Shown here one piece after another: positions 29,665-43,774 of a DNA stretch of 47,469 nt. Each line of letters starts with the position of its first letter. The first letter of the stretch is position 1. The position numbers and the translations under genes are program-made. The notes beneath the pieces are model-generated. The model was not told the DNA's origin. It was given only the letters and a program-made list of their open reading frames with translations, and ran no database searches. Origin of the DNA: an uncultured beta proteobacterium (lineage in GTDB: Bacteria > Pseudomonadota > Gammaproteobacteria > Burkholderiales > Rhodocyclaceae); the NCBI GenBank assembly GCA_903908065.1, contig CAIVQO010000027.1:1-47469 (forward strand). The letters are read 5' to 3'.

Positions 29665-30564
<900 letters not shown>

Positions 30565-30615
30565 TTAGTGGTAACTCCGTCCATTCTACCGAGAGCCCGG
30601 CGCGACGCCAGGATG

Positions 30616-30642
30616 AAAAAAGGCCGGGCAGTGCCCGGCCTT
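30616..30642 (-). terminator. Rho-independent terminator after the Met/Gly-rich protein gene
   Basis: AAGGCCGGGCA pairs with TGCCCGGCCTT (30620-30642) around a one-base centre, and six T follow on the minus strand. It separates the small exported protein gene from argB. Confidence 0.9.
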
Positions 30643-30663
30643 GGGGTCGTGCTATGCCACGCC

Positions 30664-31020
30664 TTACTTCAACATGCCACCGGCTTTCATCCGGTCACAG
30701 GCGTTGGCGCGAGGAGTGGGCAATGTCTTGCCCTGTTCCTTGGCCTTTGCTTCCATGGCCTTGTGGTGTTCCGCCTGATAGGCCTTGCACTCGTCGAAGG
30801 TCTTGAACGACCACATCTTGTCGCGATGCGCCGTGCGTTCTTCCGCACTCATCAGCGACCATCCCGGCGTGTTGCCCTGGTTGAAGGCGAAGCGGCCGCC
30901 CTTGCCGGGACCCATGCCACCCATGCCCATGCCGCCCATTCCGGGGCCCATTTGCGCCACGACCGGCGCCGCAACCGTGGCGGCGACGATGGCGATCAAT
31001 GCGATTTGCGAGCGTTTCAT
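30664..31020 (-). CDS. Small exported Met/Gly-rich protein of unknown function
   Basis: A 118-aa protein with a signal peptide (to about residue 22, ATVAAPVVAQ). The mature protein begins with a Met/Gly-rich repeat-like stretch (MGPGMGGMGMGGMGPGKGG). A helical charged domain follows with SAEERTAHRDKMWSFKTFDECKAYQAEH, and the protein ends NACDRMKAGGMLK. There are two Cys. The helical part resembles Spy/CpxP-like or conserved proteobacterial periplasmic proteins; the Met-rich part could bind copper or another soft metal. The ATG at 31020 has AAGGAAG upstream, and a longer frame to 31185 lacks a signal peptide. It has its own terminator. Confidence 0.75.
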   Translation of the reverse strand: MKRSQIALIAIVAATVAAPVVAQMGPGMGGMGMGGMGPGKGGRFAFNQGNTPGWSLMSAEERTAHRDKMWSFKTFDECKAYQAEHHKAMEAKAKEQGKTLPTPRANACDRMKAGGMLK

Positions 31021-31144
31021 GATGCTTCCTTTCGTCTGTCGATCCCGGCGGGTGCCGGCTTGCTTTGAGTTAAGTCCATGACTCTGTCTTGGGCAAGGGG
31101 AAGATCGCAACAGTTTGTAAATCCACCTGCCAACGCATAGCGAT

Positions 31145-31202
31145 TTCCTATTCATCAAATCGGAAAATAGTCTTGGACAATCCATTTTTGATCCAACAGA
31201 AT
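31145..31202 (+). promoter_or_regulatory. Promoter-operator A upstream of cbiM-cynS (shared with scn promoter)
   Basis: This block matches 35530-35587 in sequence and spacing. TTCCTATTC (31145-31153) and CGGAAAATAGTCTTGGAC (31161-31178) are identical in both, and 32 of the first 36 positions match. CTATT-N13-AATAG (31148-31170) forms an inverted repeat of the LysR-regulator type. TTGGAC (31173-31178) and CAGAAT (31197-31202), 18 nt apart, are a plausible promoter. The 326-bp gap 31021-31346 holds nothing else recognised except a 7-bp hairpin, CTGCCGT/ACGGCAG, near 31293-31310 in the predicted leader. Confidence 0.75.
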
Positions 31203-31346
31203 TGAATCATCAAGGTTTAAAGCGTTAGCGCGTTGGAGCTTTGTTTTTCCCGAAAGCAAGCGCTAGGCAATTGATTCGTAGTCTGTAAATGTCGCTGCCG
31301 TAAGCACGGCAGTATTGTTGCACCGCACCCAAGAGGAGAAGCAAGC

Positions 31347-32030
31347 ATGCATATCGAACCTGGCATCGTTGTCGGAGCTACCAAACTGGCCCTGGGTTAC
31401 GCCACGGCGGCCGGCGCGATCGGCTATTCGGCCAAGCTCGCGCTGGACATGGCGAAAAAGGACGGCGTCGGCCCAATGGCGGCCCGTGCCCTGATCGCTG
31501 CGGTATTGGTCCTGAGTTTCTTCGAAATCCTGCCGCACTACCCGGTTGGCGTTTCCGAAGTGCACTTCATCCTCGGCTCGACGCTGTTCCTGATGTTCGG
31601 CGCCGGACCTGCGGCGCTCGGCCTTGCTGCCGGCCTGCTGGTGCAGGGCCTGCTGTTTGCGCCGACTGACCTGCCGCAATACGGCATGAACGTGACCAGC
31701 CTGCTGGTGCCTCTGCTGGCGGTACACGCGCTCGCGGCCAAGATCATTCCTGCCAATACCGCCTATACCGACGTCAGCTACGCCCAGGCGCTCAAGCTCT
31801 CGACGGCCTATCAGGGTGGCGTGGTGGCCTGGGTGGCCTTCTGGGCCTTTTACGGTGCCGGCTTTGGTGCCGAGAATCTGGCCAATGTGGCAGCGTTCGG
31901 CGGTGCGTATTTGAGTGTGATCCTCATCGAGCCCGTGCTTGACCTGGGCATGCTGGCGGTTGCCAAGACCCTGCGCTCGATGGAGAGCAGCAAGCTGTTC
32001 CACGCCAGGATGTACCACCCCGCCATTTGA
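31347..32030 (+). CDS. cbiM: CbiM-type cobalt permease (energy-coupling factor family)
   Basis: A 227-aa polytopic membrane protein. The N-terminal MHIEPGIVVGA carries the His2 region used by CbiM to bind Co2+, and HFILGSTLFLMFGAGPAALG, GLLFAPTDLPQYGMN are strongly CbiM-like. No cbiN, cbiQ or cbiO is beside it, so it is an orphan substrate subunit, or it functions alone. GAGGAG lies before the ATG. The promoter is a copy of the one upstream of scnBAC, and thiocyanate hydrolase is a cobalt enzyme, so a role in supplying cobalt is likely. Nickel cannot be ruled out. Confidence 0.88.
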   Translation: MHIEPGIVVGATKLALGYATAAGAIGYSAKLALDMAKKDGVGPMAARALIAAVLVLSFFEILPHYPVGVSEVHFILGSTLFLMFGAGPAALGLAAGLLVQGLLFAPTDLPQYGMNVTSLLVPLLAVHALAAKIIPANTAYTDVSYAQALKLSTAYQGGVVAWVAFWAFYGAGFGAENLANVAAFGGAYLSVILIEPVLDLGMLAVAKTLRSMESSKLFHARMYHPAI

Positions 32031-32039
32031 TGGCATTGC

Positions 32040-32065
32040 GGGTATCCGGCCCCGGCCGGATACCC
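32040..32065 (+). repeat. Intercistronic hairpin between cbiM and cynS
   Basis: GGGTATCCGG (32040-32049) pairs perfectly with CCGGATACCC (32056-32065), and the loop is CCCCGG. No U-tract follows, so read-through into cynS is likely. It may adjust relative expression or RNA stability. Confidence 0.6.
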
Positions 32066-32167
32066 CGGTGCCAGAGGTTTCGAGACGGAACCGAATGCGC
32101 CGGCTTTCAGCGTTACACCCCCACCCCAGCCATACCAACTCAAACAACAAATTTACGGATTCAGCAC

Positions 32168-32608
32168 ATGAACAAAGCGGAAATGAAGGATGCGATCCTG
32201 GACGCCAAGGACGCAAAGAAGCTCAAGTGGGCCGACATCGCCAAGGCAGCTGGAATCTCGCCGGAATTTGTCTGCTCGGCCTGTCTGGGCATGAATCATC
32301 TGGAGAAAAAGCCTGCCGATGCGGTTGCCAAGGTGCTCGGCCTCGGCAAGGAGGTTTCGGCTGCCCTCCAGCGTTTCCCGAAAAAGACCTGGACCCAGAC
32401 GATTCCCACTGACCCCTTGATTTATCGCTGGTATGAAATCGTTGGTGTCTACGGTGAAACCATCAAGGAAATCATCAACGAGAAATTCGGCGACGGCATC
32501 ATGAGCGCAATCGACTTTTCCATGGATATCCAGAAGCAGGAAGATCCCAAGGGCGATCGCGTGGTGGTTACCCTGAACGGCAAGTTCCTGCCCTACAAGG
32601 CTTGGTAA
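32168..32608 (+). CDS. cynS: Cyanate hydratase (cyanase) CynS
   Basis: Converts cyanate plus bicarbonate to carbamate and CO2, releasing ammonia and CO2. The 146-aa protein has catalytic Arg87, Glu90 and Ser113, at the same spacing as Arg96, Glu99 and Ser122 of the E. coli enzyme. Motifs are LIYRWYEIVGVYGETIKEII and IMSAIDFSMDI, and the C-terminus is FLPYKAW. The start at 32168 begins MNKAEMKDAI. It is the second gene of the cbiM-cynS unit, which a terminator closes. Cyanate could arise from thiocyanate or from urea-type compounds. Confidence 0.95.
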   Translation: MNKAEMKDAILDAKDAKKLKWADIAKAAGISPEFVCSACLGMNHLEKKPADAVAKVLGLGKEVSAALQRFPKKTWTQTIPTDPLIYRWYEIVGVYGETIKEIINEKFGDGIMSAIDFSMDIQKQEDPKGDRVVVTLNGKFLPYKAW

Positions 32609-32636
32609 GACGCTTTCGGATTCAGCCGGCGCAAAG

Positions 32637-32676
32637 AAACCGGGTACCGCAGCGCGGTCCCGGTTTTTGCGTTTTT
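32637..32676 (+). terminator. Rho-independent terminator after cynS
   Basis: AAACCGGG (32637-32644) pairs with CCCGGTTT (32659-32666) and inner ACCGC with GCGGT, with a bulged T. It is followed by a T-rich stretch (TTTTTGCGTTTTT). It ends the cbiM-cynS unit. Confidence 0.85.
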
Positions 32677-32726
32677 GGGTATGGCGTCTGGTTCAGACGG
32701 AAAAATCGTGAACGTGGAGATAGACA

Positions 32727-33548
32727 GTGACAGCGAAAGACCCTCATAGATTCGTCAATGAACTCGATGCGGCGGCGATCGAGCGTCTGATTGCACGTTT
32801 GGAGAGCCGCGCCAAGGACAAGGTATTTACGCGATTGTTCGATCGCTACGCGCCCGAACTGGTCCCGGGGCCGGAGGGCCAAGTGCTGGAGGTCGGTTGC
32901 GGCACCGGGGCTACTTTGCGGTCCTTGGTTCGTCGCCCGGATTTCAGGGGGCGCGCCGTCGGTGTCGATCAGAGTGCCGATTTCATTGACGCAGCGCGCA
33001 GGTTTGTGGCAACCGAGCCCTTTGCCGATCAGGTCGAGTTCGATGTCGGTGATGCGCACCGCTTGGACTTTCCCGATGCCAGCTTCGATATCGTTTTTGC
33101 CCATACGCTGATCAGCCATGTCACCGATCCGCTGTCCGTATTGCGCGAGATGGTGCGCCTGGTGAAGCCAGGCGGCAAGCTGGCGATCTTCGACGGTGAC
33201 TATGCCTCGATGACCTACGCCTTGCCCGACCACGACCTGGGGCAGCGCCTGGATGCCGCGCTGGTGAAAGCCAGCTTCAACAATCCGCGGATCATGCGCG
33301 ACCTGCCGAGAATGATGCCCGAGTTCGGGCTCAAGCTGGAGTCGGCCTGGGGCGAGGCCGTGGTGGAAATCGGCAACGGCAGTTACTTCAAATCCTTCGT
33401 CGAAACCTATGCGCCCTACATCGTCAAGGCTGGCTTCTTCCCCGCCGAAGTGGTAGAGCCCTGGTTGGCCGCGCAGATCAAGGCGATCGAGGATGGCACT
33501 TTCTTTGCGGCCTGTACCTATTACACTTACATCGCCCGTCGCGTCTAG
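32727..33548 (+). CDS. SAM-dependent class I methyltransferase
   Basis: A 273-aa soluble enzyme with the class I fold. Motif I is VLEVGCGTGATL, followed by GVDQSADFIDAAR, the acidic loop VGDAHRLDFPDASFDIVFAH and a LVKPGGKLAIFDGDY stretch, as in UbiE/methyltransferase-11 proteins. The C-terminal half (about 170-273) has no motif I recognise. The start is GTG at 32727, and GGAG lies 8 to 10 nt upstream. It sits just beyond a terminator, so it is a separate unit from cynS. The substrate is not known. In this island a thiol or thiocyanate methylation is conceivable but unsupported. Confidence 0.82.
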   Translation: MTAKDPHRFVNELDAAAIERLIARLESRAKDKVFTRLFDRYAPELVPGPEGQVLEVGCGTGATLRSLVRRPDFRGRAVGVDQSADFIDAARRFVATEPFADQVEFDVGDAHRLDFPDASFDIVFAHTLISHVTDPLSVLREMVRLVKPGGKLAIFDGDYASMTYALPDHDLGQRLDAALVKASFNNPRIMRDLPRMMPEFGLKLESAWGEAVVEIGNGSYFKSFVETYAPYIVKAGFFPAEVVEPWLAAQIKAIEDGTFFAACTYYTYIARRV

Positions 33549-33601
33549 CCTCGCGGGCGCATGGCCACCGGCCATTGCTTGCCAACGTCGAACGAGAGCC
33601 C

Positions 33602-34483
33602 ATGAGCCCGGATTTTTTCATTGTTGATGTCTTTGCCGCGCGCGCTTACGCCGGCAACCCGTTGGCTGTTGTGCTCGGCGCCGAGCGGCTGAGCGACGAA
33701 ACCATGCAACTCCTGGCGGCCGAGACCAATTACTCGGAAACCACCTTCGTCTACTCTGGGAAGGAGGCGAATGGCGGCTATCGGACCCGCCTGTTTACGC
33801 CTGCCAGGGAAATTGCCTTTGCCGGGCATCCTATCCTCGGCACGGCATGGGTCATTGAAAAGTGGCTCCCGGGTGCCGCAGGAGATCGCGTCAAACTCAA
33901 CCTCCAGGTGGGCGAGATTCCGGTGTATTTCGAACACGACGGGGAGGGCGCCGATACCCTGTGGTTCGACGCTCCGCCCATCGCCGCGGGCATCCGCTGC
34001 GCTCCGGCAAGGATGGCTGTAGCCTTGGGCTTGGCAGAGGACGACATTGATCCACGTTACCCGGTTCAGGTCATGTCGGCAGGTACCTCAGCGGTGATTG
34101 TTCCTTTGCGAAGCCGCGCCGCGCTGCAGCGTGCAATGTTGGATCTGGCGACCTATGCCGGGTTGATGGCGGAGGGATTTCCTCCGCTTACCTATTTATT
34201 CTGCGCCGAAACCCAGTCAAAGGACAACGATTTGTCAGCGCGCTTTTTCTTCGAAGCGCACGGTGTCAGGGAAGATCCTGCTACCGGCAATGGCGCGGCC
34301 TTCCTGGCCAGTTATTTGCGGATGCATGAGGTCTATCCGCGCGAAAAGTTCTCCTGGCGCATCGAGCAGGGGCATGAGCTGCGACGGCCGTCGCTGGTGC
34401 GGATACGCATCGGAAATGGTGCCGGCTCGACAATCCAGGTCGGTGGCGGCGTCGTTGCGGCAATCCAGGGAAACCTGCTTTAG
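33602..34483 (+). CDS. PhzF-family isomerase-like protein
   Basis: A 293-aa protein of the PhzF/diaminopimelate-epimerase-like fold. Family marks are DVFAARAYAGNPLAVVL, ETNYSETTFVY (the catalytic Glu region), FAGHPILGTAWV, and the C-terminal domain with EDPATGNGAAFLASYLR. PhzF of phenazine synthesis is an isomerase, but most relatives have unknown substrates. It lies 53 nt downstream of the methyltransferase gene and is probably in the same unit. It converges on the LysR gene. Confidence 0.87.
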   Translation: MSPDFFIVDVFAARAYAGNPLAVVLGAERLSDETMQLLAAETNYSETTFVYSGKEANGGYRTRLFTPAREIAFAGHPILGTAWVIEKWLPGAAGDRVKLNLQVGEIPVYFEHDGEGADTLWFDAPPIAAGIRCAPARMAVALGLAEDDIDPRYPVQVMSAGTSAVIVPLRSRAALQRAMLDLATYAGLMAEGFPPLTYLFCAETQSKDNDLSARFFFEAHGVREDPATGNGAAFLASYLRMHEVYPREKFSWRIEQGHELRRPSLVRIRIGNGAGSTIQVGGGVVAAIQGNLL

Positions 34484-34512
34484 GCCTGAGCGGGGCAGGG
34501 CGACTCCGGGAG

Positions 34513-35523
34513 TCAGGCGACAGCGACCCCGGACTTCGGCATCGTTGCAACCTTGCTGGCCATCCGGGACTTCCTGGGGACCGGCTCGATCGGCTGGTCA
34601 GGCGAGATTGGCGCGCGCCCGAAGTTCCACTCCGCGGCGAGTTTGCCAAAGGCACGGCAGGCCGGACTCTTGTAGGTTCCATGCGGGCCGATCAGGGCAA
34701 TCGTGTGGTGCGGCAGTTCCGGAATCAGCGGGACGGCATACAGGCGTGGCAGCGTGCAGGCTATGGTGGTGGGTAGCACTGTGATCAGGCGCCCCAGTCG
34801 TACCGATTGCACCATCATGCTCAGGGAATTTGTTTCCACGGCAATCCTTGGATGGACCCCGTTCTCCATGCAGTAAAGGTCGAAGTGGCGACGCAAGGCG
34901 AAATTCTGGTTCAACATCACCAGCGGCTCCTGGGAAAGCACTTCGATGCCCATGGGTGTCTGACGTCCGGCAAGCGCATGGTCGGCGCCGACCGCAAGGC
35001 TCAGGGGCTCCATGAACAGTGTGTGCAGTTCGATCTTGCTGGATTCGACTTCGCTCGGCGTCGCGTGGGTAAAGGCAATTCCGGCATCCAGCGTCCCTTC
35101 CGCGACACCGGCTTCGATCTGGTCTTGGGACATCTCCATGGCGCTGATGGCGATGCCGGGATAGCGCGCATTGAACTCGTCGACCAGGGATGTGGTCAGG
35201 TATTCGGTGATCGGCGTCATCCCGAGGCGGAGATAGCCACGGCTGAGGTCTTCAAGATCGACTACGGCGCGCTTGGCGGCGTCGAGTTCCTCCAGGGCGC
35301 GTCGGGCGTGACGCACATAGACTTCACCGGCATCGGTCAGGCGCACGGTGCGTCCCGAGCGATCCAGCAGCTGCGCGTCGAGCGCCTCCTCCAGCAGCTT
35401 TATCTGCTGCGATAGCGTTGGCTGTGAAACGTGCAGCGCTTCTGCAGCCCGCGTGAAGCTATGGTTCTCGGCAACCGAGAGGAGATAGCGGATCGAGCGG
35501 GGAAACATCAGCTTCGAATGCAT
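34513..35523 (-). CDS. LysR-type regulator, CynR-like
   Basis: A 336-aa transcription factor. The N-terminal winged helix-turn-helix (about 5-65) reads RYLLSVAENHSFTRAAEALHVSQ with LSQQIKLLEEAL, and the rest is the LysR co-inducer binding domain (about 90-295) with RLGMTPITEYLTTSLV and FALRRHFDLYC. The closest style I recognise is CynR, the cyanate-responsive activator of cynTSX. The ATG at 35523 has AGGA at 7 nt; an in-frame TTG two codons earlier is less likely. The operator block begins at 35530, overlapping its own ribosome binding region, so autoregulation is likely. It is divergent from scnBAC, the classical LysR arrangement. The inducer is expected to be cyanate or thiocyanate. Confidence 0.88.
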   Translation of the reverse strand: MHSKLMFPRSIRYLLSVAENHSFTRAAEALHVSQPTLSQQIKLLEEALDAQLLDRSGRTVRLTDAGEVYVRHARRALEELDAAKRAVVDLEDLSRGYLRLGMTPITEYLTTSLVDEFNARYPGIAISAMEMSQDQIEAGVAEGTLDAGIAFTHATPSEVESSKIELHTLFMEPLSLAVGADHALAGRQTPMGIEVLSQEPLVMLNQNFALRRHFDLYCMENGVHPRIAVETNSLSMMVQSVRLGRLITVLPTTIACTLPRLYAVPLIPELPHHTIALIGPHGTYKSPACRAFGKLAAEWNFGRAPISPDQPIEPVPRKSRMASKVATMPKSGVAVA

Positions 35524-35529
35524 AACCAA

Positions 35530-35587
35530 TTCCTATTCTGCGGATCGGAAAATAGTCTTGGACAAACTTGCTTGAATTCCACAAAAT
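35530..35587 (+). promoter_or_regulatory. Promoter-operator B upstream of scnBAC (shared with cbiM promoter)
   Basis: TTCCTATTC (35530-35538) and CGGAAAATAGTCTTGGAC (35546-35563) are exactly as in copy A, with the same distance between them. TTGGAC (35558-35563) and CAAAAT (35582-35587) are spaced 18 nt, as in copy A. Similarity continues to CATCAA at 35593-35598, again at the same offset. The predicted leader to scnB is about 185 nt, and I see no other gene in it. The LysR-type gene begins 7 nt away on the other strand. Confidence 0.78.
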
Positions 35588-35779
35588 TTAACCATCAACG
35601 ATTTACCGGTTTCCTTGCTGGGCAAAACGACTGGCAATGATACGACTAAAGGCAGATTGTTGATGCCGATCCGGAATCTGAAAGCCAAGGTCTAAAAAAT
35701 GCGGCTGCTTGAAGTTGCGTCGAATATTAGATCGACTGCCGTGATTCCGAACGACAACAATTTAAGGAGAAGTCCAGCC

Positions 35780-36220
35780 ATGTCATCAAGTACCAGAGAC
35801 GAAGTGCTGCGGCATTTGCAGGCGGTGGTTGAAATCGAGCCGCCCGTGCAGCAGACCGGCAAGGCGATCTATGCATCCGACCTTACCCACGAGATGTTCC
35901 GCGCCTACACCCGCTCGCCGCATGACGTGGGCGGCCAGGTGGATGTGCCGGTCGAGTGGACCGAAGAAGAGTCCGAGGCTTGGGGCTACCGGGCCTACGT
36001 CACTACCGAGTGCCTGGCGTGGCGCGGCGTCTGGTGTGCCGAAGAGCGGCGTCGCATGCAAAACGTCGATCTCGGAACTAGCCAGTACCTGGGTCTTCCG
36101 TATTACGGCCGTTGGCTGCTCTCGGCGGCCCGAATCCTGGTGGAGGGGCATCACATCACCCTTACCGAACTCATCAACAAAATCGACGAGGTGAAAAAGC
36201 GCCATGAGCCAGCACGATAG
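35780..36220 (+). CDS. scnB: Thiocyanate hydrolase beta subunit
   Basis: Subunit of the cobalt enzyme that hydrolyses thiocyanate to carbonyl sulfide and ammonia. The 146-aa protein corresponds to the N-terminal half of a nitrile hydratase beta chain. Visible features are VEWTEEESEAWGYRAYVTTE, the helical YLGLPYYGRWLLSAARILVE and TLTELINKIDEVKKRH, typical of ScnB. The ATG at 35780 has AAGGAG 10 nt upstream. The end overlaps the start of scnA by 17 nt. Gene order scnB-scnA-scnC matches Thiobacillus thioparus. Confidence 0.9.
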   Translation: MSSSTRDEVLRHLQAVVEIEPPVQQTGKAIYASDLTHEMFRAYTRSPHDVGGQVDVPVEWTEEESEAWGYRAYVTTECLAWRGVWCAEERRRMQNVDLGTSQYLGLPYYGRWLLSAARILVEGHHITLTELINKIDEVKKRHEPAR

Positions 36221-36569
36221 AACCCATCACGCCAGGATCGCCACCGGCAAGGGTGATCCGCAATGTTTTGCTGGCACGGCCGGTGGCCCACCCAAATTCA
36301 AGGTTGGTGATCGCGTCCGCATCAAGGACATGCCGGATATCTTCTACACGCGCTGCCAGGTTTATACCCGTGGTGCGGTCGGCGAAGTCGCCGTTGTCAC
36401 GCACGAGAGTCCGGCGCCGGAAGACGAGGCCTGGGGCCACGTAGACAAGTCCGAGTGGTTCTACATCGTGCGTTTCAAGCAGACGGATCTCTGGCCTGAA
36501 TATCCGGCAGCGTTTGCCAACGACACCTTGCAGACGGAGTTCTCCGAGCGTTGGCTCGAGGCGGTTTAA
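36204..36569 (+). CDS. scnA: Thiocyanate hydrolase alpha subunit
   Basis: A 121-aa subunit corresponding to the C-terminal SH3-like part of nitrile hydratase beta chains, split off as a separate protein in thiocyanate hydrolases. Motifs are PKFKVGDRVRIKDMPDIF, GAVGEVAVVTHESPAPED and KSEWFYIVRFKQTDLWPEY. It overlaps scnB, giving coupled translation and roughly equal amounts. It has an N-terminal His-rich stretch (HDRTHHARIATG). Confidence 0.9.
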   Translation: MSQHDRTHHARIATGKGDPQCFAGTAGGPPKFKVGDRVRIKDMPDIFYTRCQVYTRGAVGEVAVVTHESPAPEDEAWGHVDKSEWFYIVRFKQTDLWPEYPAAFANDTLQTEFSERWLEAV

Positions 36570-36606
36570 CCGGCCGATCGGCACCAGATTAAAGGAAGGG
36601 AATTAC

Positions 36607-37305
36607 ATGTCACACGATCACGATCACAACGCACCGGCAGCGATGGTGGATGAAATCAGCGACTTCGAGGCGCTCGAAATCGCGGTTCGCGAAATCTGCA
36701 TCGAGAAGGGTTTGTTCTCCGCCGAAGATCACCGCAAATTCACCGAGTTCGCCGAACACATCGGGCCGACCCCGGCTGCCCGCATGGTCGCCAAAGCCTG
36801 GCTGGATCCCGAGTACAAGAAGCTGGTCATGACGGATGCGATCGCCGCCAGCAAGGCTGTCGGGGTTGATTACCTCAATCCGACGGGCTTTGGTACGCCG
36901 AGCGACTACACCGACCTGCGGGTGCTCGAAGATACGCCCAGCGTGCATCACGTTGTCGTTTGCACCCTGTGTTCATGCTATCCGCGCCCGATCCTGGGCT
37001 TCCAGCCGGAATGGTACCGGACGCCCAACTATCGCCGCCGCCTGGTTCGCTGGCCGCGTCAGGTTCTGGCCGAGTTCGGCCTTACTCTGCCCGCCGAGGT
37101 TGATGTGCGTGTCGAGGATTCCAACCAGAAATGCCGCTTCATCGTCATGCCCGTGCGCCCGGCCGGCACCGAGGGCTGGACCGAGGACCAACTCACGGAA
37201 ATCGTCACGCGTGATTGCCTGATCGGTGTTGCCCTGCCCAAGCCCGGTGTGACGTCGAACCTCGAACTGCCCGTGCATCGCGCGGCAAAGCCGGCGCATC
37301 ACTGA
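36607..37305 (+). CDS. scnC: Thiocyanate hydrolase gamma subunit (cobalt-binding)
   Basis: The catalytic subunit, related to nitrile hydratase alpha chains. The 232-aa protein carries the claw-setting motif VCTLCSCYPRP, with Cys119, Cys122 and Cys124, in which the second and third Cys are normally oxidised to sulfinate/sulfenate and bind Co3+. The Thr after the first Cys (CTLC rather than CSLC) is characteristic of the cobalt type. An HDHDHNAPA stretch at the N-terminus is rich in His. AAGGAAGGG lies before the ATG. Confidence 0.94.
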   Translation: MSHDHDHNAPAAMVDEISDFEALEIAVREICIEKGLFSAEDHRKFTEFAEHIGPTPAARMVAKAWLDPEYKKLVMTDAIAASKAVGVDYLNPTGFGTPSDYTDLRVLEDTPSVHHVVVCTLCSCYPRPILGFQPEWYRTPNYRRRLVRWPRQVLAEFGLTLPAEVDVRVEDSNQKCRFIVMPVRPAGTEGWTEDQLTEIVTRDCLIGVALPKPGVTSNLELPVHRAAKPAHH

Positions 37306-37319
37306 TAGGAGCAAGCATC

Positions 37320-37775
37320 ATGGCCGTACCCGAGAAAATGCACGCTCCCGCCGATATGGCGGAGTGCGCGGCGAACTGGACGCCAGTCCCGCTGCTTGAG
37401 GAGATCAAGGAGCATGGGCGGGTGTGGGGCGAACTGGCGGAGCAGTATGGAGTTACCAATCCCGATCCGCCCTGGAAAACCAGCCTCGATGGCATGTGTG
37501 AAGTGCTGGCATCGGGGTCGTGTTCGTCAATGGCGGCGGCTGAGAAGCGCTGGTTGGCCGGGGATGTGGTTCGCGATGCGATGGATGCGCCGCTGCCGCT
37601 GCTTGAGCGTCGCTGGGAAGAGGATGAACTGTCGGCGACCCTCTACCAGGATGTCCCTTTCCCGGAGCGTCAGCTGCTTGCGCTGACGCACTCGCTGATC
37701 AAGCGTGGTCTGGTCGATCCGGAAATCTTGAAACAAAGAATGAAGGAAGTGCACGAGCGGCTCGCCGCCACCTAG
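37320..37775 (+). CDS. P15K-like maturation protein for thiocyanate hydrolase
   Basis: A 151-aa protein resembling the nitrile hydratase beta N-terminal / accessory fold (PFPERQLLALTHSLIKRGLVD). In Thiobacillus thioparus a similar gene, P15K, follows scnC and is needed for cobalt loading and Cys oxidation of the gamma subunit. Its size (about 16-17 kDa) and position fit. Motifs include PDPPWKTSLDGMCEVLASG. GGAG lies before the ATG at 37320. The role is from family and position. Confidence 0.8.
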   Translation: MAVPEKMHAPADMAECAANWTPVPLLEEIKEHGRVWGELAEQYGVTNPDPPWKTSLDGMCEVLASGSCSSMAAAEKRWLAGDVVRDAMDAPLPLLERRWEEDELSATLYQDVPFPERQLLALTHSLIKRGLVDPEILKQRMKEVHERLAAT

Positions 37776-37963
37776 TCCGGCTGTCCGAGTGGCGGATTCC
37801 CGATGTTCTGGAGTTCGTCTGGTCGAAGCGCGGCGCAAGCAAGGCGAGTGCGCAGAAGGTAGTACCCAGCATGCGGAGCTGTCGATGGGCGGCGTGTCGG
37901 TTCGTCCGGCCGCCGACCCCGCCGGCGGAGACTCCAGAAAAACCAGTCACGGAGAATTGATCG

Positions 37964-38794
37964 GTGTCAATCAGAGGAGTCGAAATCAACATCCACGGGT
38001 TGGGCTACCGTTACAGCACGCGTGGCAACCCGACGTTCACCAATCTGCAACTGCAGTCCAGGCGCGGTGAGGCCTTGGCCATCATCGGACGCTCCGGTTG
38101 CGGCAAGTCGACGCTGCTGCACATCATCGCTGGCCTCAATCGTCCTACGGAGGGCGTCATCGAGTTCGATGGTAAGAAGGTCGATGGTCCGTCATCGCGC
38201 TGGGTCATGATGTTCCAGGCGCCCCATCTTTACCCCTGGATGAAGGTTTCGCAGAATGTCGGGGTTGGCTTGAAGTTTGCCGGTTGGCCCGAAAAAGAGA
38301 AGGCCGAGCGTGTTGCCGAGGCGTTGCGTTTGGTCGAACTGCAGGATTACGCCGAGGTAAGCGTCCAGGATCTCTCCGGAGGCCAGCAACAGCGGGTTGC
38401 GCTGGCGCGCTCACTGGTGATGGAGCCGGAATTGCTGCTGCTCGACGAGCCATTTTCCGCACTGGATGCCTTTACACGCTCGTCCCTGCAGCGCGATGTG
38501 CGCTCGATTGCCAAGAAACTCGGCTTCAACCTGATCATCGTGACCCACGATATCGACGAAGCCATCCTGATGGCGGACCGCGCGGTAATCATGGCGGGCG
38601 CTCCGGGGAAAATCGTCACCGAATTCGAAGTGCCTTTGCCGGATCCGCGCCAGCGCCAGGATCCCGCCGTACAGGCCATGCGTTCCCGCCTGATGGATGC
38701 CTTCCACAGCGCGGCCGGCAAGCCGACGGGTGCGGATGCCCATGGCGAAGAGGACGTCGATACTGATTCCGAAAGTGTTACACAGCATGCCTGA
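37964..38794 (+). CDS. ABC transporter ATPase (NrtD/SsuB/TauB type)
   Basis: A 276-aa ATPase of the nitrate/sulfonate/bicarbonate importer class. Walker A is IIGRSGCGKST (about 41-50), the Q-loop is in MMFQAPHLYPWMKV, the signature is LSGGQQQRVALARSL and Walker B is LLLLDEPFSALD. GTG start at 37964 with GGAG upstream. It follows the scn genes after a 188-bp gap in which I see no gene. The transporter genes downstream in the same unit, and the enzyme upstream, suggest that it powers thiocyanate uptake. Confidence 0.93.
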   Translation: MSIRGVEINIHGLGYRYSTRGNPTFTNLQLQSRRGEALAIIGRSGCGKSTLLHIIAGLNRPTEGVIEFDGKKVDGPSSRWVMMFQAPHLYPWMKVSQNVGVGLKFAGWPEKEKAERVAEALRLVELQDYAEVSVQDLSGGQQQRVALARSLVMEPELLLLDEPFSALDAFTRSSLQRDVRSIAKKLGFNLIIVTHDIDEAILMADRAVIMAGAPGKIVTEFEVPLPDPRQRQDPAVQAMRSRLMDAFHSAAGKPTGADAHGEEDVDTDSESVTQHA

Positions 38795-38836
38795 CCCTTT
38801 GCAGGTCAGCAGTTCCCTACCCTGAGGAGACCCACC

Positions 38837-40171
38837 ATGTGCATACTCTGCGATTCGCTTGCTGGAAAACATCATCCATCGGATGAGCCCCACAAGGACT
38901 ACAAGAAGCATGGCGATGGCATCAGCGATCCGAATCTGGTGATCGAGTACGACCCCCTGTTCAGCAGCGTCCTTGGCACTGGCGTCAATCGCCGTGAGCT
39001 CCTCAAGTGGGGTGGCCTCGGTGCTTTGGCCGGCTTGGCGCCGACCTCGGCCACCTTCGCCCAGGAAAAGAAGTGGGATCCCACGGTGCGTATCGGCTAC
39101 ATCCCGATTACCGACGCTTCGGCGCTGCTGGTTGCGCATGAAATGGGCTTCTTCAAGAAAGAAGGCCTGGAGTCGGCGCCGCCAACCCTGATTCGCGGCT
39201 GGTCGCCGCTGGTCGAGGCCTTCTCGGCGCACCGTTTCAATCTGGCCCATCTGCTGATCCCGGTGCCGATCTGGATGCGTTACGGCAATAAGTTCCCGAT
39301 CAAGATTACCGCGTGGAACCATACCAACGGTTCGGGCATCGTGGTGGGCAAGGACAGTGGCATCAACTCGCCCAAGGACTTCGGCGGCAAGCAGTTCGCC
39401 GTTCCCTTCTGGTATTCGATCCACAACATCATTTCGCAGAAGATCATGCGCGATGCCGGCATCACGCCGGTGATCAAGCCGCAAGACGCCAAACTGGCCC
39501 CGAACGAATGCAACTTCATCGTGCTCAACCCGCCGGACATGCCGCCGGCGCTGGCGGCCAAATCGATCGATGGTTATTGCGTTGCCGAGCCTTTCAACGC
39601 CCTCGGCGAGGTGCGAGCCGGCGCCAAGATGCTGCGCATGACCGGCGACGTATGGAAGGGACATCCCTGCTGCGTGGTGGTGATGCACGAACAGGACACC
39701 ATGGATCCGGCGCGGGCGGCTTGGGCGCAAGCGGTACATAACGCAATCGTCGCCGCCCAGATCCACCTGGTCGAAAACCGCGCTGCGATGGCCGAGATGC
39801 TGTCCAAGGACGGCAAGGGTTACCTGCCCTTCCCGAAGGAAGTCGTCGGCCGCGCCATGATGCTCTACGACATTCCGTATCCCGGCAACGCTGCGGCGAT
39901 CAAGAACAAGGACTGGGGCATGGATCGCATCAACTTCCAGGGCTGGCCCTACCGTTCCGCCACCGAACTGGTGGTCAATGACCTGAAGAAGACCATGATC
40001 ACCGGCGACGCCGGATTCCTGGAGAAGCTTGATCCCAAATTCGTTGCCAACGACCTGGTCAATTACAGCTTCATCAAGAAGGCACTGGACGCGAATCCCA
40101 AGTGGAAGAACGACCATAGCGTGCCGAAATCCGGCGATCCATTCACCCGTACCGAAACCATCATCCTATGA
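38837..40171 (+). CDS. ABC transporter substrate-binding protein (NrtA/CmpA-like), predicted thiocyanate binder
   Basis: A 444-aa periplasmic binding protein of the NMT1/NrtA class (VRIGYIPITDASALLVAHEMGFF). It is exported by a twin-arginine-like signal: Arg52-Arg53 in NRRELLKWGGLGALAGLAP, cleaved after about SATFA. Before it are 50 extra residues starting MCILCDSLAGKHHPS, with two Cys and a His-rich stretch, unusual for a Tat signal. GGAG precedes the ATG. Its stop overlaps the first permease gene. The ligand thiocyanate is inferred from the operon; the binding pocket cannot be read. Confidence 0.86.
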   Translation: MCILCDSLAGKHHPSDEPHKDYKKHGDGISDPNLVIEYDPLFSSVLGTGVNRRELLKWGGLGALAGLAPTSATFAQEKKWDPTVRIGYIPITDASALLVAHEMGFFKKEGLESAPPTLIRGWSPLVEAFSAHRFNLAHLLIPVPIWMRYGNKFPIKITAWNHTNGSGIVVGKDSGINSPKDFGGKQFAVPFWYSIHNIISQKIMRDAGITPVIKPQDAKLAPNECNFIVLNPPDMPPALAAKSIDGYCVAEPFNALGEVRAGAKMLRMTGDVWKGHPCCVVVMHEQDTMDPARAAWAQAVHNAIVAAQIHLVENRAAMAEMLSKDGKGYLPFPKEVVGRAMMLYDIPYPGNAAAIKNKDWGMDRINFQGWPYRSATELVVNDLKKTMITGDAGFLEKLDPKFVANDLVNYSFIKKALDANPKWKNDHSVPKSGDPFTRTETIIL

Positions 40172-41013
40172 GCAACCAAGCCACATCCGGGGCGGTCACC
40201 GCCGCTTCCGGTGTGACCCGCGGCGCGGGCGCACGCTATGCAATGGCGGCGTCCCGCGGCACCGCGAACTTCGTGCTCGGTCTGCTGATCCTCGCTGTGC
40301 TGTGGGGAATAGGCGGCTACATGATCGCCACCAATCCGAAGACAGCCAACTTTGCCGGCTTCGGATTGCTGCCGACGCTGCAAGCCTTTCCCGAGTTATG
40401 GGACATGGGCAAGTTGCAGAAGGCTACCTACGCCAGTGGCTATCGCCTTGGGTCGGGGATGCTGATTGCAATATTGGTCGGGGTGCCGCTAGGCATCATC
40501 ATGGGTCGGGTGCAATGGTTCCGCAAGCTCAGCAATTCGCCTTTCCAGTTGCTGCGGATGATCAGCCCGCTGTCCTGGATGCCGATTGCCGTGCTGGTGT
40601 TTTCTTCCTGGGACGGCTCGATAGTTTTCCTGGTGGCCTTTGCGTCGGTATGGCCCGTGATGTACCAAACCGCAGCCGGTCTGTCCAAGGTTGATCCCGC
40701 ATGGTTCAAGGTGGCTCGAAATCTGGGCGCAACCCAGGCGCAAATGCTGACGCAGATCATCCTGCCAGCCATCAGCTTCGACATCTTCACCGGAATTCGG
40801 CTTGCGCTTGGCGTCGCCTGGGTGGTGCTGGTCCCGGCCGAATTGCTGGGCGTGACGTCCGGACTCGGCTATGCGATCAAGGATGCGCGTGAAACCTTGT
40901 CCTACGATCATCTGACGGCAATGGTGCTGACCATCGGCATCATCGGCTACGCGCTGGATACGCTGTGTGCCCTGCTGATCAAGAAGTTCAGCTGGCATCG
41001 CGGAGACATGTGA
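40168..41013 (+). CDS. ABC transporter permease (SsuC/TauC type), first of two
   Basis: A 281-aa membrane permease. The N-terminus is a short cytoplasmic segment followed by a helix (FVLGLLILAVLWGIGGYMI). The BPD_transp_1 core contains ARNLGATQAQMLTQIILPAI, the EAA-type loop that contacts the ATPase. It is about 55-60% similar by eye to the next gene and probably forms a heterodimer with it. Overlaps the binding-protein gene by 4 nt. Confidence 0.92.
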   Translation: MSNQATSGAVTAASGVTRGAGARYAMAASRGTANFVLGLLILAVLWGIGGYMIATNPKTANFAGFGLLPTLQAFPELWDMGKLQKATYASGYRLGSGMLIAILVGVPLGIIMGRVQWFRKLSNSPFQLLRMISPLSWMPIAVLVFSSWDGSIVFLVAFASVWPVMYQTAAGLSKVDPAWFKVARNLGATQAQMLTQIILPAISFDIFTGIRLALGVAWVVLVPAELLGVTSGLGYAIKDARETLSYDHLTAMVLTIGIIGYALDTLCALLIKKFSWHRGDM

Positions 41014-41014
41014 C

Positions 41015-41839
41015 ATGAGTACCAACGCAGCCACGCTGACAAATCCATCAACCCAATCGCGCTCGTCCGCTGCCTTCAGCAGCGCGGCCTCCGGGATTGG
41101 CTACTTCGTTGCCGGCTTGGCTATCCTGATCGGCTTGTGGTGGCTGGCCATCTACATTGCGACGAAAAACCCGGCCCTGTCCCAGTTCGCCAACTTCGGA
41201 CCGGTGCCGGCCTTCAAGGCCATACCCCACATGTGGGACAACGGGCTGATCCCGAAGGCCTTGCAATCGAGTGGTTACAGGCTGGGCATGGGTCTCCTGA
41301 TCGCGATTGCCATCGGGGTTCCGATCGGCATCATCATGGGGCGCAACAAGCGTTTCCGCGATCTGACCAACTCCCCGTTCCAGTTGATGCGCATGATCAG
41401 CCCCCTGTCCTGGGAGCCGATCGCGGTTATCGTGTTTGCCGGCTGGGATTCGGCGATCATCTTCCTGATTGCCATTGCCTCCGTGTGGCCGATCATGTTC
41501 TCGACGGCAGCCGGCTTGGCCAAGGTTGATCCGGCATGGTTCAAAGTCGCGCGCAACCTCGGCGCCAAACCTTGGCAGCTGGTGACCGAGATCATCATTC
41601 CGGCGATCATGTTCGACGTGGTCACCGGTATCCGCCTAGCGGTCGGCGTGGCCTGGATCGTGTTGGTGCCTGCCGAGTTTCTAGGCGTCACCTCCGGTTT
41701 CGGCTACACCATCGAGGATGCGCGCGAGTCGCTGGAGTACGAGCATCTGATGGCCATGCTGCTGGTAATCGGCGCCGTCGGCTATGTGCTCGACAGCATT
41801 TGCATGGTCTTGATCAAGCGCTATAGCTGGCACCGTTAA
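41015..41839 (+). CDS. ABC transporter permease (SsuC/TauC type), second of two
   Basis: A 274-aa paralogue of the preceding permease, 1 nt after it. The EAA loop is ARNLGAKPWQLVTEIIIPAI, and the following AVGVAWIVLVPAEFLGVTSG is shared with its neighbour. Having two permease genes plus one ATPase and one binding protein suggests a heterodimeric channel. It is the last transporter gene before the sulfur-transfer genes. Confidence 0.92.
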   Translation: MSTNAATLTNPSTQSRSSAAFSSAASGIGYFVAGLAILIGLWWLAIYIATKNPALSQFANFGPVPAFKAIPHMWDNGLIPKALQSSGYRLGMGLLIAIAIGVPIGIIMGRNKRFRDLTNSPFQLMRMISPLSWEPIAVIVFAGWDSAIIFLIAIASVWPIMFSTAAGLAKVDPAWFKVARNLGAKPWQLVTEIIIPAIMFDVVTGIRLAVGVAWIVLVPAEFLGVTSGFGYTIEDARESLEYEHLMAMLLVIGAVGYVLDSICMVLIKRYSWHR

Positions 41840-41909
41840 GCACAGACTGACCGGATAACAATCACAACACCCGCCGCGGCACCCCCGGCCCCACAGGAGA
41901 CAGGAATAC

Positions 41910-42296
41910 ATGGCAAAGAAGTTGCACATCGTGTGCGTGTCCGGCACGAAGGAGAAGCTCCAGATGGCTTCGATGATCGCCTCGGTGGCTGCGGCTACGG
42001 GCGACGAGGTATCCGTGTTCTTTTCGATGAATGCGGTCAGGTACTTCATCAAGGGCAATACCGACGAAGCGCCGTGCGAAGGTGATTTCGGCCAGTTGCT
42101 CGGCAAGGGTGTGCCCCCGTTTCGCCAACTCTTCCAGCATGCGGCGGAGCTGGGGGATGCCTCGCTCTTGCCGTGCTCGATGGCCCTCGATTTGTTGAAG
42201 ATTGGCCATGAGGACCTGGACCCATCGTTTGGTCCGCCTACCGGACTGACCAAGTTTCTCAGCGATGCAGAAGGCGCTCAGCTGCTTTCTTTCTGA
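41910..42296 (+). CDS. Cytoplasmic DsrE-family sulfur-transfer protein
   Basis: A 128-aa DsrE/DsrF-like protein without signal peptide. The fold marks are KLHIVCVSGTKEKLQMASM and GDEVSVFFSMNAVRYF. Three Cys are at positions 9, 56 and 89; Cys89 in LLPCSMALDLL corresponds in position to the functional Cys of DsrE-type sulfur carriers. It is paired with TusA, a common partner in sulfur-oxidising bacteria, so a persulfide relay is likely. Confidence 0.85.
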   Translation: MAKKLHIVCVSGTKEKLQMASMIASVAAATGDEVSVFFSMNAVRYFIKGNTDEAPCEGDFGQLLGKGVPPFRQLFQHAAELGDASLLPCSMALDLLKIGHEDLDPSFGPPTGLTKFLSDAEGAQLLSF

Positions 42297-42340
42297 TTTG
42301 CGCCATACCGTTACCGATATTCCCAAGGAGGTTCCCCAAA

Positions 42341-42571
42341 ATGAGTGTTACCAAAACGATCGACGCACGCGACACCTTCTGCCCCGGGCCGCTGATGGAA
42401 CTGATTTCCTACATGAAGCACGCCACGGTGGGCGACGTGGTTGAACTGTTGTCCACCGACAGCGGTTCGGCCAACGACATTCCAGAGTGGGTCAAAAAGG
42501 TCGGCCACGAGATGGTGGGCACCGAACAGGTGGAAGGCGTCTGGCATCTGAAGGTACGCAAGGCGAAATGA
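42341..42571 (+). CDS. TusA-family sulfur carrier
   Basis: A 76-aa TusA protein with the conserved CPGP motif at Cys14 (DTFCPGPLMELI), which carries persulfide. The remainder (GDVVELLSTDSGSANDIPEWV) is typical. It follows DsrE in the cytoplasm. In sulfur oxidisers TusA passes sulfur from rhodanese and DsrE toward oxidation; the same may apply to sulfur from thiocyanate. AAGGAGG lies before the ATG. Confidence 0.95.
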   Translation: MSVTKTIDARDTFCPGPLMELISYMKHATVGDVVELLSTDSGSANDIPEWVKKVGHEMVGTEQVEGVWHLKVRKAK

Positions 42572-42640
42572 CATGGGCCGGGCGAGGCACCGGCTGCGAA
42601 CAGGGATGGATGCACAGGACATAATGGACAGGAGGAAGCA

Positions 42641-43774
42641 ATGAGGATCTTAGTCGTTGGTGGCGGAACAGCCGGCACCATCATCGCCAACAATCTGGCG
42701 CGTCGCCTGGGGCCTGAAACCCGCGCCGGCAAGGTGCGCATCACCATGCTTTCGGCTACCGACCGTCACATGTACCAGCCTGGCCTGCTTTATGTCGCAT
42801 TCGGCCAGATGGCGCCCGATCAGCTCTACCGCGACCAGGCCAGCCTTCTGGAACCGAATATCGAGTTCCACGTCGATCCGGTCAAGCAATTCAAGCTGGA
42901 CCGGAATCAGGTGGTCACCGAGGCCGGCAAGACCCATGAGTACGACATCATGGTGATCGCCACCGGCTCGCGCATGGTGCCGGACGAGACTCCGGGCCTG
43001 AGTGAAGGCGCCGAGTTCTTCTATACCGAAGCCTCGGCGGTCAAGATGTACAAGGCCCTGCGTGAATTCCAGGGCGGACGCGTTGCCGTGGCCGTCGGTG
43101 TCCCGCACAAGTGTCCGATCGCCCCGGTCGAGGTCATGTTTTCGCTCAATGACTTCTTCAAGGCCCGCGGTATCCGCGACAAGGTGCACCTCAAGTACTA
43201 CTACCCCATCGGTCGTATCCACACCATCGAAAACGTCGCGAAATGGGCCAAGCCCGAGTTCGACAAGATTGGTGTCGAATACGAGACGCTGTTCAACATC
43301 AAGGAAGTCGATGCCAAGAACAAGATCCTCAAGAGCGAGGAGGGCACCGAAGTCAATTACGACATGCTGATCGTCATTCCGCAGCATCGCGGCATGGAGG
43401 TCATCGAGCGCGACAACATGGGCCAGGGCGGATGGATCCCCACCGATCGCTACAAGCTGACCATGAACGGGCACGAGAATGTCTATGTGGTCGGCGATAC
43501 CACCAACCTGCCGGTGAGCAAGACGGGTTCGGCGGCCCACTTCCAGGCCGAGGTCGTGGCCGAGAACATCGCGTCCATCGTCAAGATTGGCGCACCGGTA
43601 AGGGACTATGACGGAAAGGTATACTGCTTCATCGAGGCGGGCCACGAAAAGGCCACCTACGCCATGTTCAATTACCTGAACCCGCCTGACCTCAAGCCGC
43701 CCTCCAAGCCCATGCACTGGTTCAAGCTTTCCTATAACCAGATGTACTGGACCAGCGTTCGCGGCCTACTCTGA
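42641..43774 (+). CDS. Sulfide:quinone oxidoreductase-like flavoprotein
   Basis: A 377-aa FAD-dependent oxidoreductase of the pyridine-nucleotide disulfide family (VVGGGTAGTIIANNLA for FAD; VYVVGDTTNLPVSKTGSAAH near the C-terminus). Cys158 in VPHKCPIAPVEV and Cys329 in KVYCFIE are at the positions of the two redox cysteines of sulfide:quinone oxidoreductases. The third Cys, near residue 128 in some types, is absent. The C-terminal membrane-association helices are short. It would oxidise sulfide to sulfane sulfur and reduce quinone. AGGAGG lies before the ATG. Confidence 0.88.
   Translation: MRILVVGGGTAGTIIANNLARRLGPETRAGKVRITMLSATDRHMYQPGLLYVAFGQMAPDQLYRDQASLLEPNIEFHVDPVKQFKLDRNQVVTEAGKTHEYDIMVIATGSRMVPDETPGLSEGAEFFYTEASAVKMYKALREFQGGRVAVAVGVPHKCPIAPVEVMFSLNDFFKARGIRDKVHLKYYYPIGRIHTIENVAKWAKPEFDKIGVEYETLFNIKEVDAKNKILKSEEGTEVNYDMLIVIPQHRGMEVIERDNMGQGGWIPTDRYKLTMNGHENVYVVGDTTNLPVSKTGSAAHFQAEVVAENIASIVKIGAPVRDYDGKVYCFIEAGHEKATYAMFNYLNPPDLKPPSKPMHWFKLSYNQMYWTSVRGLL

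Follow-up and report, generated by a model that had tools for sequence, protein, structure and literature searches.

A predicted operator shared by thiocyanate hydrolase and cobalt-uptake/cyanase genes and probably read by a CynR-type regulator

Positions 1 to 47,469 of contig CAIVQO010000027.1 (the window), from an uncultured beta proteobacterium of the Rhodocyclaceae, carry two gene units that point the same way: unit 1, with the cobalt-uptake gene cbiM and the cyanase gene cynS, and unit 2, with the thiocyanate hydrolase genes scnBAC. A LysR-type regulator gene lies between them on the other strand, and nearly the same block of sequence stands in front of each unit. What is this block, and is it read by the regulator beside it? 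Our comparisons indicate a real, specific and widely conserved operator, most likely read by the adjoining CynR-type regulator. Very probably, this regulator reads the boxes of both units, activates both units in the presence of an inducer, and represses itself. No description of a regulator of thiocyanate hydrolase genes was found in open-licence PMC papers, among the matches listed, and the site provides a directly testable predicted operator together with a list of predicted targets.

The two blocks and the conserved box

The blocks at 31145-31180 and 35530-35565 are identical at 32 of 36 positions, just as the original prediction, made from the letters of this DNA alone, had counted, and the full 58-base blocks (31145-31202 and 35530-35587) at 44 of 58. 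When block 2 served as the query, the next-best 36-mer in the window on either strand matched at 20/36, and the top score among Markov-simulated intergenic pairs (n=200) was 24/36. The claims that TTGGAC and the CARAAT -10 keep the same spacing and that similarity reaches CATCAA also held: 18 bases separate TTGGAC from CAGAAT or CAAAAT in both blocks, and CATCAA is present at equal offset. In the whole genome (3,840,682 bases, 103 contigs), two site patterns searched with up to 3 mismatches hit only the two block positions, and a reversed-pattern control at the same tolerance gave 0 matches; the motif is thus not scattered over unrelated promoters of this genome.

The letters that matter were identified from relatives. 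An ScnC scan, which as a one-protein scan reaches close relatives only, gave 94 relatives, and the best 80 of these were used as loci. Sites scoring at least 16/20 on the search pattern were taken from L003-L082 (113 sites, 77 once near-copies had been removed) and aligned with positions counted from the first C of CCTAT. The logo of the 77 sites has ATAG at -10 to -7, CTAT at 1 to 4, AT at 12-13, CTTGGA at 25-30 and a CATAGT-like -10 at 50-55. ATA at -10 to -8 is kept in 99, 99 and 96% of the sites, and the -10 hexamer occurs at +50 in 66/77, as compared to at most 16/77 at any of the nine neighbouring offsets that were tested. The search pattern included neither the -10 hexamer nor the ATAG arm.

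A dyad scan of the same sites placed the top centre at -3, corresponding to ATAG-N7-CTAT, with a score of 0.66 (mean 0.265). A second, weaker dyad, CTAT-N7-AT(C/A)G, is centred at 8 with a score of 0.58; being outscored, it was rejected as the sole box and kept as a second dyad. The inverted repeat originally proposed as the operator, CTATT-N13-AATAG, did not survive this comparison. It occurs in the window twice, both times exactly, with one mismatch permitted and 0.19 matches expected, and it is kept in none of the 77 sites of relatives; its dyad centre, 12, scores 0.234, below the mean, and the conserved dyad is centred 15 bases further left. The proposed extent of the blocks was right in part: the blocks are real, and the conserved sequence begins 8 bases further left.

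If the transcription start is taken about 7 bases past the -10, the main box is centred at about -65 of this predicted start, and ATAG-N7-CTAT is in this respect a T-N11-A-type LysR dyad box near -65 of a regulated divergent gene. ATA...TAT is kept in 52 of the 56 non-redundant sites away from the regulator gene. This rules out that the conservation is due solely to the start codon of the regulator, which in unit 2 lies under the box, and makes the sequence an operator, not solely a constraint on translation.

Sites and regulator genes among relatives

If the regulator reads the box, the two should occur together. A CynR-like regulator was called present in a locus at 120 bits or above, which divided the 80 loci into 48 with and 32 without it. 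Among the 48 loci with the regulator, the best site reaches 17/20 or more in 39 and 16 or more in 46; in the remaining two it scores 15. Three of the 32 loci without it reach 17, two of which (L018 and L081) have a regulator fragment at the locus edge. By title, 26 of these 32 loci are mycobacterial or from Pseudonocardia, and none of the 26 reaches 16/20. Counted by scnB copies, a site of at least 15/20 lies within 450 bases upstream in 48 of the 51 copies with the regulator and in 4 of the 31 without it, three of these four belonging to L018 and L081; at a threshold of 17/20 the same 450 bases give 36/51 and 3/31. A reversed-sequence control over 88 loci yielded 8 matches at 15 or 16 and none higher, as compared to 102 real matches of at least 17; this control and the score tally included L083-L090, and the per-locus and scnB-copy counts did not. 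The counts support the view that the operator site tracks the regulator gene across loci and, with it, the prediction of a single regulon that comprises cbiM-cynS and scnBAC together with the genes downstream of the latter.

Surveys of whole genomes gave a similar picture. In the genus, scnC was over its cut-off in 10 of 31 genomes, and the regulator orthologue (at least 65% identity) was found in the same 10. Each of these genomes carries two sites with at most 2 mismatches, and the single further site, in G407, precedes a cbiM and a cynS cut by the contig end (Fisher p 2.5e-7 for this co-occurrence, with kinship ignored). The order was represented by 399 genomes, and a tolerance of 2 mismatches gave sites in 11 of them. 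The sites with no more than one mismatch number 10 and come exclusively from 6 genomes, in all of which scnC passes its cut-off. At two mismatches the numbers are near that of the reversed control (three): genomes with scn contribute two sites, and another five come from four genomes in which scnC does not pass the cut-off. Of the latter five, only the L118 site has the box. In the class, the CynR model was over its cut-off in 5 of 274 genomes; in the four other than the present genome the box lies at the start of the regulator, and scn (three) or cynS (one, L166) is close by. The operator letters of L166 are identical to those of L057, so that the two are probably one species. The CynR model also matched in the 14 control genomes of this search, including an E. 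coli, and was over its cut-off in none.

The position of the box relative to the regulator gene is also conserved. The block had been predicted to overlap the ribosome binding region of the regulator, and the box indeed straddles the start codon in 44 of 48 regulator genes, with one arm forming the ribosome binding site (the 48 starts come from 47 loci with near-copies kept, and matches lacking the first residues, such as that of L017, were excluded). From this geometry we infer autoregulation: a regulator bound over its own start codon and ribosome binding site would repress itself. A promoter scan of 35480-35800 gave one weak minus-strand match for the regulator's own promoter, at 35786-35759. 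In L010 (8722 and 8875) and L011 (8699 and 8872), the stretch from the regulator to scnB holds two operators: the copy at the regulator start is degraded, the other, about 150-170 bases further on, is intact, and these pairs look as if self-control and target control had separated.

An alternative for the two blocks is a recent promoter duplication without a common regulator. The 32/36 identity inside one genome and the clustering of the genes are what a duplication would leave, whereas paired sites recur in relatives, the N7 spacers have diverged while specific bases are kept, and the sites precede genes as unrelated as cbiM, a HupE/UreJ permease gene and glcF-like and porin-like genes. We therefore regard a duplication of this kind as extremely unlikely, and the common operator remains the preferred explanation.

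Likeness to CynR and OxyR and the direction of control

The regulator scored 360.7 bits on the NCBIfam CynR model (cut-off 277), scored from an inner start at 35508, which bears out its original description as CynR-like. Both Pfam domains of a LysR-type protein, HTH_1 (83.2 bits) and LysR_substrate (140 bits), were over their cut-offs. The protein is 45% identical to E. coli CynR, and its best match by sequence among solved structures is the CynR effector domain (2hxr/3hfu, E 8.5e-40). In a tree of 57 rows, 51 scn-linked regulators form one clade (support 98/95) that adjoins E. coli CynR, which is a sister to the group and outside it; E. coli CynR was the sole named CynR in this tree, which held no other cyanate-only CynR proteins.

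In the excerpted text of PMC5002191, 15-base-pair boxes centred at -66 are given for CynR (ATAA-n7-TTAT) and OxyR (ATAG-n7-CTAT), and E. coli CynR is stated to activate cynTSX with cyanate and to repress itself. When the E. coli cynR-cynT region (4 kb, both strands) was aligned with the sites found here, the best alignment fell exactly in register with the published CynR site, at 28/45 to the site of a relative (L124) and 25/45 to that of the window, the next best being 22. In both systems a 15-base-pair box has its centre near -65/-66 and the remainder of the operator is in register; both also have a divergent gene and a cyanase gene among the targets. They differ in the half-site, ATAG/CTAT here and ATAA/TTAT as published, and in the location of the box, which lies on the regulator start codon here and begins 10 bases beyond it in E. 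coli. Moreover, E. coli CynR is divergent from cynTS(X), whereas the regulator of the window is divergent from scnBAC with cynS in the other unit, and the predicted targets here, unlike those of E. coli CynR, comprise thiocyanate hydrolase and cobalt import and, elsewhere, glcF-like and porin-like genes. Judged by its letters, the predicted operator has the layout of CynR and the half-sites of OxyR.

This mixture raises the possibility that another LysR regulator, above all OxyR, reads both boxes and that the gene between the units is incidental. The published OxyR site has the same ATAG-n7-CTAT box centred near -66 (PMC5002191), and the sole match outside scn genomes that keeps the box (G070/L118, core 1501-1531) has on one side a LysR gene that shares 33% identity with the regulator of the window and on the other a peroxiredoxin-glutaredoxin-like gene; both genes look OxyR-type by eye, and this site is probably an OxyR operator. 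Oxidised OxyR, however, contacts four ATAG elements according to the same excerpt, whereas the sites here have two clear ones, ATCG as the third in most cases and no evident fourth, and their ATCGGAA-N4-GTCTTGGA half differs from the four-fold ATAG repeat. Also, the sites follow the CynR-type gene, the box lies on the start codon of most of the regulator genes, the E. coli CynR operator aligns in register, and the OxyR model gave the regulator of the window 122.8 bits, well below its cut-off of 329. Control by OxyR is thus very unlikely, and the CynR-type regulator remains the preferred reader of the box.

Assuming this, the regulator would bind both units at the ATAG-N7-CTAT box, whose centre is near -65, and thiocyanate or cyanate would act as inducer; transcription would be activated from the -35 (CTTGGA), which the downstream contacts of the regulator overlap. 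Unit 2 would then make and supply the cobalt enzyme thiocyanate hydrolase, and unit 1 would import cobalt and make cyanase. The same regulator could instead repress both units until the inducer arrives, considering that the conserved sequence reaches into the -35, where a bound protein could block polymerase. This we consider very unlikely, since the poor -10 and the position of the main box, near -65 relative to the predicted start, are in keeping with an activator, and E. coli CynR activates its target operon. As for the inducer, thiocyanate induced cynT in E. coli, and the authors could not exclude contamination by cyanate (PMC12096828, excerpt). The product of thiocyanate hydrolase is given as carbonyl sulfide and ammonia, not cyanate, in the excerpted part of PMC5328954, which makes thiocyanate itself the more economical guess, and with moderate confidence we favour it as the predicted inducer.

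Several observations weigh against activation by the CynR-type regulator through this box. The search pattern was first derived from the window, then adjusted once relatives had been seen, so that counts at its own positions are partly circular. The half-site is that published for OxyR, the E. coli CynR operator, which is without the strict box, reaches 14/20 on the search pattern, the second symmetric box published at -44 for E. coli CynR is not supported by the sites here (dyad score 0.305, mean 0.265), and the -10 hexamers of the window (CAGAAT and CAAAAT) are non-consensus. Among the genomes, G265 has scnC over its cut-off and no site was found in it. Among the loci, L065, the third of the high-scoring loci without a called regulator, has sites but yielded no regulator; in L031, L043 and L069, one copy of scnB per locus has no site upstream; the box is away from the regulator start in L031, L042, L066 and L073; and no recognised gene follows the sites at 1180 in L017 and 1416 in L018.

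Genes behind the operator

The features of both units are listed in Table 1. With scnC over the TIGR03887 cut-off next to two genes for NHase-beta-type subunits, the genes of unit 2 can be assigned to thiocyanate hydrolase. Downstream of them are a small protein without family match, ATP-binding-cassette-transporter-like genes, a DsrE-like gene and a sulfide:quinone-reductase-like gene, the last of which has the type III sulfide:quinone reductase model as its best NCBIfam match, below the cut-off; the transporter and DsrE names were taken from a Thiobacillus cluster (PMC5328954, excerpt) and not from family searches. The NCBIfam CbiM models matched cbiM below their cut-offs.

Table 1. Features of the two units and of the regulator gene in the window
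Feature	Position	Strand	Basis or remark
Operator box ATAG-N7-CTAT (ATAGCGATTTCCTAT), unit 1, predicted primary regulator site	31137..31151	+	77-site logo, dyad scan
Conserved core CCTAT-N7-ATCGGAA-N4-GTCTTGGA, unit 1	31147..31177	+	
-35 TTGGAC (or TGGACA one base on), unit 1	31173..31178	+	
-10 CAGAAT, unit 1	31197..31202	+	Same offset as CATAGT of relatives
cbiM, cobalt-uptake substrate-specific membrane protein	31347..32030	+	Pfam CbiM, 60.4 bits (cut-off 23.1)
cynS, cyanase	32168..32608	+	TIGR00673, 164.5 bits (cut-off 113.3)
S-adenosylmethionine-dependent methyltransferase	32727..33548	+	Stays with cynS in many scn loci
PhzF-family protein, last of unit 1	33605..34483	+	
CynR-family LysR-type regulator, ATG at 35523	34513..35523	-	NCBIfam CynR; start kept in relatives
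Operator box ATAA-N7-CTAT (ATAACCAATTCCTAT), unit 2	35522..35536	+	Overlaps regulator start codon (35521-35523) and ribosome binding site
Regulator ribosome binding site ATAGGA	35531..35536	-	Formed by right operator arm
Conserved core CCTAT-N7-ATCGGAA-N4-GTCTTGGA, unit 2	35532..35562	+	
-35 TTGGAC (or TGGACA one base on), unit 2	35558..35563	+	
-10 CAAAAT, unit 2	35582..35587	+	
scnB	35780..36220	+	Pfam NHase_beta_N (nitrile-hydratase beta N-terminal type)
scnA	36204..36569	+	Pfam NHase_beta_C (nitrile-hydratase beta C-terminal type)
scnC, thiocyanate hydrolase gamma subunit	36604..37305	+	TIGR03887, 383.4 bits (cut-off 291.45)
Unit 2 downstream genes	37323..43774	+	Gene order kept in many relatives

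In the relatives, scnB and cbiM are the commonest genes after sites of at least 17. A HupE/UreJ-family permease takes the place of cbiM in L007, L026, L044, L057, L060 and L064 (6/6 tested), and this swap of CbiM-type and HupE-type permeases behind one operator suggests that cobalt may be their common cargo. Other genes follow the site less often. It stands directly before cynS in L006 and L078. Porin-like genes also follow it, those of L057 (Alginate_exp) and L074 (OprD) being over the cut-off and that of L052 below it, with two more that resemble the latter by eye; other followers are a DUF4198 gene (L042) and an alpha/beta hydrolase gene (L032). A glcF-like gene lies behind the site in 14 loci (L023, L026, L034, L036, L037, L040, L043, L044, L046, L051, L056, L057, L064 and L069), 9 of them titled Thiobacillus. 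Two of these genes were tested and both were over the GlcF cut-off; the other 12 were judged by the likeness of their translations. The operator before glcF-like genes near scn is an unexpected link between thiocyanate and glycolate oxidation.

The nearest described gene set is the scn cluster of Thiobacillus thioparus DSM 505, for which the excerpted text of PMC5328954 gives scnABC, a transporter, a DsrE-like gene and a sulfide:quinone oxidoreductase, as well as cyanase, a methylase and a single cobalt transporter subunit, all of which have counterparts here. In that strain (L034) the genes form one run after the regulator, whereas in the window the regulator separates the cynS unit from scnB. 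That paper was not among the matches of a full-text search on thiocyanate hydrolase and LysR, so that it does not describe the regulator under that name.

The predicted regulon bears on a long-standing puzzle: thiobacilli that use thiocyanate have cyanase activity, which was once read as a sign of a cyanate pathway, though the hydrolase makes carbonyl sulfide (PMC5328954 and PMC6504805, excerpts). A CynR-type regulator that switches on cyanase along with the hydrolase, if true, would account for this cyanase, and the tie to cobalt import, if true, would place metal supply and metal enzyme under one switch. More broadly, though we advance this only tentatively, the sister group of CynR may be a dedicated thiocyanate sensor whose regulon, in several proteobacterial lineages, joins thiocyanate hydrolase with cobalt supply by two unrelated permease families, cyanase, outer-membrane channels and glycolate oxidation, and whose operator is built into its own start codon.

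The genome also contains a second cynS over the cut-off, outside the window (G000:C60:91790-92221), and the genome-wide pattern searches found no such operator near it; one cyanase would thus be inside the predicted regulon and one outside. Both units of the window have long 5' leaders (31203-31346 and 35588-35779); counted from the predicted starts, they are about 140 and 186 bases long. An Rfam search of 30500-37000 for riboswitches gave no match in the leaders and, outside them, two sub-threshold matches only, on the opposite strand. The distance from the site to scnB is alike in many relatives.

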